Of a stretch of DNA of 64,000 nucleotides, positions 57,479-59,650 are shown in pieces. This DNA comes from Hymenobacter gelipurpurascens (GTDB taxonomy: Bacteria; Bacteroidota; Bacteroidia; Cytophagales; Hymenobacteraceae): assembly GCF_900187375.1 (NCBI RefSeq), contig NZ_FYEW01000001.1, forward strand, positions 2,542,001-2,606,000, in the 5' to 3' direction. The notes under the pieces are model-generated. The model had not been told where the DNA came from and ran no database searches. It saw only the letters and a program-made list of their open reading frames with translations. Within the stretch, counting starts at the first letter, position 1. Each line of letters opens with the position of its first letter. Both the position numbers and the translations under genes were made by a program.

Positions 57479-59650
57479 ATGGAGAATTTCGTTGTTTCAG
57501 CCCGCAAATATCGTCCCGCCACGTTTCGCAGCGTAGTTGGGCAGCAGCACGTTACCACCACGCTGCAGAACGCCATTGCCTCTCAGCATCTGGCGCAGGC
57601 GTTTCTGTTTTGCGGTCCGCGCGGGGTGGGCAAAACCACCTGCGCTCGGATTCTGGCCAAAACCATCAATTGCGAGTTTGTAGAGGAACATGTGCGTAAA
57701 GGACGCCCCGTTTCGGAGCTGCTGAAAACGCAGCCCGAGATTGTGCCCGATGCACTTCAGCAGTCTGCCGACCCCGATAACACACCTTTCGAGCTGGAAG
57801 CTTGCGGCAAGTGCAGCTCGTGCCGCGCCTTCCAGGAAAGCGCCTCTTTCAACGTACACGAGCTCGATGCCGCTTCCAACAACTCCGTAGAAGACATCCG
57901 CAGCCTCGTGGAGCAGGTGCGCTACGCCCCGCAGCAGGGCCGCTTCAAGGTGTACATCATCGACGAGGTGCACATGCTCTCGAATGCGGCCTTCAATGCC
58001 TTCCTCAAAACCCTGGAAGAGCCGCCGAGCTACGCCATTTTCATCTTGGCTACCACCGAGCGGCACAAGATCATCCCCACGATTCTCTCGCGCTGCCAGA
58101 TCTTCGATTTCAATCGGATTCGGGTTGATGATATTCGGGGCCATTTGCGCTACGTGGCTACCCAGGAGCAGATCAAGGCCGAGGACGATGCGCTGCACCT
58201 GTTGGCCCAAAAGGCCGATGGTGGCCTACGCGACGCCCTGAGCATGTTCGACCAGATGGTGACCTTCTCGGGCCACGATCTGCGCTATAAGGATGTGGTC
58301 CAGAACCTGCATATTCTGGACTATGAGTACTATTTCCGGCTGGTTGATGCTTTGCTGACGGAGAACCTGTCTCAGACGCTCCTGCTGCTGGAAGAGGTAG
58401 TCCAGAACGGCTTCGATTTGCACAACTTCGTGGTGGGTGCCGCCGAGCATTTGCGTGGCCTGCTGGTGTGCAAGGACCCCATTACGGTGCAGCTGCTGGA
58501 AGTGTCTGATAACATTCGGGCGCGCTATGTACAGCAGGCCCAGGCCGCACCGTTGGCCTTTCTGCTGTCGGGCCTAAACCTGGTAAGCCAGTGCGACCGG
58601 GAGTTCAAGCAAGCCAAAAACCAGCGCCTGCACGTAGAGCTGATGCTGATGAAGCTGGCCTACCTCAACGGCGCCGTGCAGTTTGCCCGCGACATGGGTG
58701 CTGGCCCCGCCGCCAACGCTCAAGCCGCGTCGCCACAAAACGGCGAGGCAAAAAAAAAAAGTAGCGTAGCTCCTGCAGTTCCCGCCCCCGATGGAATGCT
58801 GACCACCAACGGTACGGCAGAAACGGCCGCAGCTTATATTCCGGCAACTGGAAACAGCCCTGCACAACCTGCAGTAGCCACCGTGCCTGCCGCCGCTCCT
58901 ACCCCCGCTAGGCCACTTGCCCACGCTCCCGCTGACCCCGAGCCGATTGTGCCCATCGAGAGCGGTGTGGAGGAATTGCACAGCACGCCCAGCATTGAGG
59001 ATGAAGCCGCCACAGAGGTGCCCGCTACCCGGCAGGCTCGCGACACGGTGCCACACGTGGAAATCGGGAGGCCTAGTATTGCCGGCCACGAGCCCGGCCA
59101 AACGCCCGTAACGGCAGCCCCCCTGCCCCCACCCCGCCCCGGTTTGCCCACTAGCAAGCCGATAGGCCTAGGCAGCAAGATACCTGGCCTAGGTAGCCTG
59201 AGCGCCATGAAAGCGCAAATGGAGCAGCAGGCCGCGGGCAAGGCTGCCTTAGTCGATACGGAACCCAGCGGCCCTACTATGGGCCTGGCCCCCATCAACG
59301 ATGAGGTGCTGCAGCGGGTGTGGAAAGAGCTGCTGGAAGAGCGCAAGCAGCACAGCATGAGCGAGTACAGCGTGCTGAACCGCCCCGTGCAGGCTAATGA
59401 GCAGCACGTAGTAGTGCTCCGCGTGGACAATCCCGTGCAGGAAGACCAGTTCAACGAGTTCCGGGCCGGTTTCCTGGGCGAGCTGCGCCGCCGCACCGGC
59501 TACCCGCGCCTCAACGTGCAGGTGGAAGTAGTAGAGCGCGTAGATACCGGCCGCAAGCTCTACACCTCTACCGATAAGCTGGAATACCTGATGGAGAAGT
59601 ACCCCATGCTTTCTGAAATGAAGCAGAAGCTAGGCCTGGATACCGATTAG
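57479..59650 (+). CDS. dnaX: DNA polymerase III subunits tau/gamma, with slippery A11 run
   Basis: A 723-residue clamp-loader ATPase. ATG 57479 is used since a GTG 12 bases up overlaps the promoter. Walker A is GPRGVGKT (46-53), zinc cysteines lie in ACGKCSSCRAF plus an inserted segment unusual in length, Walker B is IIDEVHML, and the sensor is TILSRCQIF. Domains I-III end near residue 370; then a Pro/Ala linker, and a C-terminal tau-specific region (about 600-723). Codons 424-427 sit on a run of eleven A (58750-58760); both shifted frames stop within 3 codons, predicting a 428-429 residue gamma. Confidence 0.95.
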   Translation: MENFVVSARKYRPATFRSVVGQQHVTTTLQNAIASQHLAQAFLFCGPRGVGKTTCARILAKTINCEFVEEHVRKGRPVSELLKTQPEIVPDALQQSADPDNTPFELEACGKCSSCRAFQESASFNVHELDAASNNSVEDIRSLVEQVRYAPQQGRFKVYIIDEVHMLSNAAFNAFLKTLEEPPSYAIFILATTERHKIIPTILSRCQIFDFNRIRVDDIRGHLRYVATQEQIKAEDDALHLLAQKADGGLRDALSMFDQMVTFSGHDLRYKDVVQNLHILDYEYYFRLVDALLTENLSQTLLLLEEVVQNGFDLHNFVVGAAEHLRGLLVCKDPITVQLLEVSDNIRARYVQQAQAAPLAFLLSGLNLVSQCDREFKQAKNQRLHVELMLMKLAYLNGAVQFARDMGAGPAANAQAASPQNGEAKKKSSVAPAVPAPDGMLTTNGTAETAAAYIPATGNSPAQPAVATVPAAAPTPARPLAHAPADPEPIVPIESGVEELHSTPSIEDEAATEVPATRQARDTVPHVEIGRPSIAGHEPGQTPVTAAPLPPPRPGLPTSKPIGLGSKIPGLGSLSAMKAQMEQQAAGKAALVDTEPSGPTMGLAPINDEVLQRVWKELLEERKQHSMSEYSVLNRPVQANEQHVVVLRVDNPVQEDQFNEFRAGFLGELRRRTGYPRLNVQVEVVERVDTGRKLYTSTDKLEYLMEKYPMLSEMKQKLGLDTD
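58750..58760 (+). promoter_or_regulatory. Candidate programmed slippage site in dnaX
   Basis: Eleven A in a row (GCA AAA AAA AAA AGT in frame). Adding one A yields AAG TAG; removing one yields GTA GCG TAG. Either shift ends translation after the clamp-loader core, as in Thermus dnaX where transcriptional slippage on an A-run makes gamma. Confidence 0.65.

Follow-up and report, generated by a model that had tools for sequence, protein, structure and literature searches.

A probable programmed slippage site at the gamma/tau branch point of dnaX in Hymenobacter and other Bacteroidota

Introduction

The dnaX gene of Hymenobacter gelipurpurascens contains an uninterrupted run of eleven A residues shortly past the part that encodes the clamp-loader core. 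Does this A11 run act as a programmed slip site, through which one gene gives clamp-loader proteins of two lengths? Transcriptional slippage was reportedly described for Thermus thermophilus dnaX by Larsen et al. in 2000. The gamma protein of E. coli has 431 residues, and tau is essential. The gene studied here lies in a stretch of 64,000 nucleotides of contig NZ_FYEW01000001.1, the whole of which is called the window. An earlier note on this DNA had proposed programmed slippage at the run, and the conservation of the run and the closed frames in relatives support that reading. As judged from these comparisons, the A11 run is very probably a programmed slip site for two clamp-loader proteins, one long and one short.

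Results

The A11 run and its predicted products

dnaX is a single ORF for tau on the forward strand (57482..59650; 722 aa), which starts with an ATG at 57482 and ends with a TAG at 59648-59650. Its identity is given by NCBIfam PRK14971, which scores 742.9 bits (cut-off 685). Pfam matches are PF13177 (residues 105-212), PF22608 (218-264), and PF12169 (272-396), and the last of these was used to set the end of the core. The core common to gamma and tau (57482..58669, forward strand) consists of the AAA+ module, the lid, and the collar domain to residue 396. The fast-diverging tau linker (58770..59251), whose bounds are approximate and were drawn from divergence among relatives, is followed by the tau C-terminal segment (residues 591-722; 59252..59647), which served as the query for the tau frame in relatives; both are on the forward strand, and no Pfam match was found in the linker or in the C-terminal part of DnaX. 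As a separate observation, positions 57677-57787 (about residues 66-102 of DnaX) hold about 34 additional core residues. Seventeen of the 42 other genomes of the genus align straight through this part, and in the remaining DnaX proteins of the genus the match begins at about residue 101, the N-terminus appearing, where it is listed, as a piece of its own.

The run occupies 58750..58760 on the forward strand, in the local reading GGC GAG GCA AAA AAA AAA AGT AGC GTA GCT, and GGCGAGGC stands upstream of it, on the side where an E. coli-type site has its internal Shine-Dalgarno sequence. One added A changes the reading to AAG TAG, so that the -1 frame is closed by a TAG at 58762..58764, 1 nt past the run, with a predicted gamma of 427 aa (47.8 kDa). 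One lost A gives GTA GCG TAG, and the +1 frame is closed by a TAG at 58767..58769, 6 nt past the run, with a predicted gamma of 428 aa (47.9 kDa). The predicted mass of tau is 79.3 kDa. Both stops are on the forward strand. The earlier note had given the run and a TAG in each shifted frame, and on re-reading these were exact. It was also right that the codons are GCA AAA AAA AAA and that either shift truncates the protein just past the core. Its numbering, however, was one too high: counted from the ATG at 57482, the GCA before the run is codon 423 and the four codons are 423-426 rather than 424-427, and the products have 427 and 428 residues rather than 428-429.

The locus was compared with the forms known for dnaX elsewhere. 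A Thermus-type site has a run of at least nine A or T residues at the gamma/tau boundary, and here A11 stands just past the core; it also has a single tau ORF whose two alternative frames soon meet stops, which here lie at 1 and 6 nt. The E. coli-type heptamer A_AAA_AAG is absent from the window gene, in which AGT follows the run and the only heptamer in frame is A_AAA_AAA. The gene does not have the two-ORF form, in which the zero frame ends at the run, since it is a single ORF of 722 aa.

The dnaX gene is 60% GC, and A11 is the sole homopolymer of at least eight nucleotides within the 64 kb window; no second A11 or T11 was found in the 5.06 Mb genome. Outside the run, from about residue 101, lysine is encoded by 4 AAA codons as compared to 18 AAG. 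When the linker codons of this gene were shuffled, both stops were as close in 35 of 5000 shuffles (the -1 stop alone in 1020 and the +1 stop alone in 357), and the single gene is therefore merely suggestive. The two near stops are unusual in this gene, not overwhelming, and the weight rests on the comparative evidence.

Conservation in Hymenobacter and its family

The family survey read dnaX with the core protein from 110 of 120 genomes, and the ten left out belong to genus g6. Genera were coded g1 to g6; g1 is Hymenobacter by the named rows within its clade, and g6 is Rufibacter by a row identical to L004. All 43 genomes read from the genus of the window, its own included, carry A9-A11 at the same point. 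The gene is a single ORF in 41 of them (38 with A10 and three with A11), and in 41/41 of these a stop ends each shifted frame within 30 nt. The -1 stop lies 1 nt past the run in 36 of 43 genes and the +1 stop lies 6 or 9 nt past it, also in 36 of 43. The linker diverges quickly while the run and the stops stay. This was the check that the earlier note had asked for in related Hymenobacter genomes, and the proposal came through it with 43/43 runs and 41/41 closures. Further out in the family, A10 was present in all 22 loci read from g4, g5, and g6.

In the closest relative (L082, core 97% identical), A10 follows GCG where the window has GCA. The difference is a synonymous substitution and not an indel, by which the A10 of L082 corresponds to a run lengthened to A11 in the window. 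In two other genomes of the genus, L108 (A9) and L118 (A11), dnaX is split by one-base variants of run length in opposite directions, which are either real alleles or assembly errors.

RNA folding past the run was compared over 60 nt. No excess structure was found, with a mean z of -0.21 in the 43 same-genus loci, -0.12 in 22 loci of g4-g6, and -0.24 in 64 named loci, and no stimulatory stem-loop of the E. coli type was found in those 43 same-genus loci. The same test gave a mean z of -1.08 in 42 loci of the run-less sister genus g3. The 70 nt past the run in the window itself fold to -16.6 kcal/mol, a structure that is not conserved, judging by the divergent linkers.

Survey across Bacteroidota

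Three sets of loci were pooled: 80 named loci, which are the best 80 of 594 matching stretches and not a random draw, 110 loci of the family, and 88 loci of a phylum survey. These sum to 278, or 276 with two identical pairs counted once. For the phylum survey, 90 of 128 genomes were read (L081, L110, 28 loci from the search, and 60 chosen to span families); the 38 left out include the weak matches G138 and G166 and the contig-end G214. A run of at least nine A residues was present in 65/80 named loci (best 80 of 594), 65/110 family loci, and 62/88 loci of the phylum survey. Among distinct loci, 190 of 276 have such a run near the core end, 188 of them within a 210-nt junction and two outside it. 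Elsewhere in the 276 loci, none was seen in 230 kb of core and three were seen in the 750 nt that come next in each gene. No run of nine or more T residues was found in the junction of the 278 loci. The junction carries the run in 85/139 genes of at least 50% GC as compared to 105/139 genes below 50% GC, duplicates included. A10 predominates (145/190), and the run occurs in all three phases (80, 64, and 46 of the 190 loci).

Exactly one frame is open for more than 300 nt and the other two are closed within 30 nt in 180 of the 190 run-bearing loci. In the ten exceptions, the second frame is closed within 61 nt in eight cases and at 182 and 258 nt in two. Shuffles of the linker codons reached the observed median stop distance in 0/500 trials, in either frame and in each of four sets; genes whose linker was too short were left out of these tests (one of 45 split genes). 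In the 45 split genes, the zero frame ends shortly past the run and the tau frame needs one added A (42 genes) or one lost A (three genes). The third frame of the split genes is closed too, at a median of 8 nt versus 26, with 0/500 shuffles reaching it (44 genes tested). The pattern that had been pointed out in a single gene extends in this sample to 190/276 Bacteroidota loci.

The site is common, not universal, as 86 of the 276 loci have no run of nine or more. These are 43 loci of g3, two of g2, three with a UAG cassette, and 38 without a recognized device (12 named and 26 from the phylum survey). The Bacteroidaceae-like named loci L023, L044, L076, and L080 are among those without a run. 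A side observation concerns L023, L044, and L080, which share a common GGGGCGTAGC at the same place that bears a -1-frame TAG after G_GGG.

A candidate frameshift cassette in sister genera

The 43 loci of g3 (L136, L137, L139, L142-L144, L146, L150, and L151-L185) lack a long run. They carry A7 as A_AAA_AAA in 42 cases and A6G as A_AAA_AAG in L150, and the heptamer is followed by GCTAA and then by a nearly invariant block. Within the block there is a possible stem, GGTAGCRGC/GCCGCTACC, with a loop GGCRCC complementary to GGTGC[CT], and the latter stands 9, 12, or 15 nt past the stem in 43/43 loci (38, 4, and 1, respectively) as compared to 4% of codon shuffles. The block may thus form an H-type pseudoknot 5 nt past the heptamer, as a possible model. 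In this model 92.4% of cells pair, as compared to at most 54.1% when the partners are slid, and two inner pairs of the stem are frequently broken (in 19 and 26 of 42 rows). Covariation in the g3 pseudoknot was not above that in shuffles, with one pair changed on both sides and an equally high value in 226/500 shuffles, since there is hardly any variation in the pairs. The -1 stop lies 2 nt past A7 in 42 g3 loci, so that a -1 shift would make gamma there.

L150 and the g2 loci L133 and L138 have A_AAA_AAG ahead of a zero-frame stop, with the tau C-terminus in the -1 frame. The split dnaX of the two g2 loci gives gamma in the zero frame and tau in the -1 frame, and a hairpin with an 8-bp outer stem directly follows the heptamer. 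The g3 cassette is a candidate for -1 ribosomal frameshifting in place of the A run. A FastTree phylogeny built from 124 core proteins places g2 and g3 together as sister groups (support 88) among run-bearing relatives. We read this as a single putative replacement of slippage by frameshifting, for which gain and loss are indistinguishable by the tree alone.

An in-frame UAG in gut Bacteroidales

A different arrangement, first encountered in three loci among named gut MAGs, was found in 16 distinct Bacteroidales loci (L043, L059, L279-L284, L288-L291, L294, L296, L300, and L301). Fourteen of these are among the 30 survey loci, read from the 30 of 81 genomes most similar to L071 (L279 is L071 itself), and the others are L043 and L059. 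The zero frame ends at the core end with TAG AT[TA] GC[ATC] AG[GA], and tau continues beyond it, without a change of frame, over 186-254 codons. From 10 nt past the TAG, 16/16 loci have a stem of 3 bp or more, against 0.16 in codon shuffles, and these stems vary in sequence yet pair. The cassette pattern occurs once each in 13/81 genomes, in 12 of which it adjoins dnaX by coordinates; the reversed control occurs in 2/81. TAG terminates the tau frames of L300 and L301 and is therefore still a stop there. The IAR peptide past the TAG is conserved with synonymous changes, which indicates that selection at the peptide level also acts. Readthrough is the simplest candidate reading of these loci, though translation may instead restart at AUU or AUA. 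In a search of eight loci against Rfam, the sole match was a weak one to L296 (21.9 bits; gathering score 44).

Eight other loci of the same Bacteroidales family (L285-L287, L293, L295, and L297-L299) have A10 far down the linker, about 360-380 nt before the tau end and not at the core end. The 276-locus count takes in three of the 13 run-bearing loci of the Bacteroidales survey; other runs of nine or more A residues there are uncounted.

Discussion

Which machine slips at the run

We consider it probable that the programmed slippage is performed mainly by RNA polymerase, giving gamma and tau as in Thermus. Nascent RNA would slip against the template on A11 and yield mRNAs with more or fewer A residues. 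Those with 11 or 11 +/- 3n A residues would be translated into tau, and those of other run lengths would meet a TAG at 1 or 6 nt and give gamma, predicted to be the clamp-loader core without the linker and the C-terminal segment. RNA polymerase as the main slipping machine rather than the ribosome, the gamma/tau ratio, and the joining of gamma to the replisome are what we infer in this scheme. Several points favor transcriptional slippage: the run is found in every phase, stops close the +1 as well as the -1 frame, and excess structure was not found downstream, whereas the sister genera without the run have a -1 frameshift heptamer with structure after it. A -1 frameshift needs a stop in the -1 frame only, so equal strictness in the +1 frame fits a machine that adds and removes A residues. 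E. coli RNA polymerase produces indels on A11, as stated in part of PMC6260861, and Thermus thermophilus dnaX slips transcriptionally on A9 (passages of PMC1088944 and PMC5009743).

The ribosome could make the same products from uniform mRNA, by a -1 shift of lysyl-tRNA on A_AAA_AAA or by sliding on poly(A), with termination at the near TAG. A_AAA_AAA does stand in frame, the sister genera carry a -1 frameshift heptamer, and robust sliding of E. coli ribosomes on A11 was seen in vitro, according to a portion of PMC4363877. The same portion describes little truncated product on A9 or A10, and A10 is the run in 145/190 loci. Tau is in the -1-reachable frame in 42/45 split genes, a bias that -1 shifting would also leave, but in the other three the shift must go the other way. 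Closure is no less strict in the +1 than in the -1 frame. A -1 shift would get by without a closed +1 frame, and the closed third frame of split genes would be superfluous for it; sliding, by contrast, could make use of both. The lack of excess structure past the run also speaks against the ribosome. The tRNA complement bears on this question as well. Two tRNA-Lys genes were found among 42 tRNA matches in the genome, both UUU, and a search for the tRNA-Lys anticodon-arm pattern gave one match, which is not a tRNA gene by ARAGORN. The Thermus case was argued from two lysine tRNAs, as an excerpt of PMC5009743 puts it. With tRNA-Lys(UUU) alone, that argument is inapplicable here, and A_AAA_AAA is readable by one slippery tRNA, which favors the ribosome. 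Taken together, these points make ribosomal slippage an unlikely account of the site.

It is very improbable that the protein selects only a patch of lysines, with the A run as a by-product of codon choice. At least nine A residues in frame necessarily encode two or three lysines, and basic residues recur at the same spot. However, AAA makes up 34% of lysine codons elsewhere in dnaX of the genus, yet the run is pure A in 43/43 genes; pure A extends past the lysine codons; only two lysines are kept in g3; and lysine choice leaves the two closed frames unexplained. This reading was rejected on the purity of the run, its extension past the lysine codons, and the closed frames. Least credible of all is phase variation, in which run length would change in the DNA and switch tau and gamma forms within a population: the one-base variants in opposite directions that split L108 (A9) and L118 (A11) would fit it but may be assembly errors, and the idea was rejected because 41/43 same-genus genes keep the tau frame and the A11 of the window differs from the A10 of its closest relative by the GCA/GCG substitution and not by an indel.

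Meaning of the site

Since slippage is known from Thermus and from the two-ORF genes in the part of PMC3711429 that treats dnaX, polymerase slippage at the window site would add a member to a known kind. In one literature library, covered as listings and the starts of abstracts, nothing on these Bacteroidota sites came up in titles or abstracts besides PMC3711429 and PMC5009743. Within the same scope there was no account of the single-ORF form across Bacteroidota, of frame closure measured as a signature, of a frameshift cassette taking the place of a slip site inside a family, or of dnaX with an in-frame UAG.

We lean, by a modest degree, towards a broader reading in which the gamma/tau branch point of dnaX would be a recoding site over much of Bacteroidota. 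Selection would keep the product pair while the devices interchange at the same place: polymerase slippage on A9-A13 (190/276 loci), -1 frameshifting with a hairpin or H-type pseudoknot in the sister clade, and UAG readthrough or stop and restart with a 3' hairpin in gut Bacteroidales. The importance of gamma was disputed in E. coli, as noted in a passage of PMC5009743. A slip site in about two thirds of the sampled loci, together with the closure of the frames that are not wanted, speaks for a wide need for the gamma and tau pair in Bacteroidota. Within one family, a ribosomal signal seems to have taken over the making of this pair from polymerase slippage, so that the two levels of decoding may be compared in near relatives. 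There is also a warning for annotation, as dnaX of the split relatives resembles a truncated gene.

Comparison with known systems

The product pair is the same as that of E. coli dnaX, where it arises by -1 programmed ribosomal frameshifting. The E. coli signal consists of A_AAA_AAG, a stem-loop, and an internal Shine-Dalgarno sequence (according to passages of PMC5009743 and PMC3711429), whereas the Hymenobacter gene has a long run of pure A without excess structure. Closer in form are the 17 two-ORF dnaX genes found by GeneTack, with poly-A at the gamma/tau boundary and ten As in nine of them, for which transcriptional realignment was proposed (part of PMC3711429). The 45 split relatives share this two-ORF form as it appears in that part of the paper. 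The window gene is a single ORF, whereas in the genes of that paper the zero frame yields gamma and a shift is required for tau.

Thermus thermophilus dnaX is like the window gene in its one tau ORF, in an A run close to where gamma and tau part, in the nearby stops of the two alternative frames, and in a truncated gamma (passages of PMC1088944 and PMC5009743). The definition of a Thermus-type site also includes mRNAs with varied A-run lengths and a gamma:tau ratio of about 1:1. The run is A9 in Thermus but A11 here and A10 in most relatives. Two lysine tRNAs are ascribed to Thermus in an excerpt of PMC5009743, and this genome shows one. Slippage in Thermus is experimental, whereas in Hymenobacter it is deduced from comparison of sequences.
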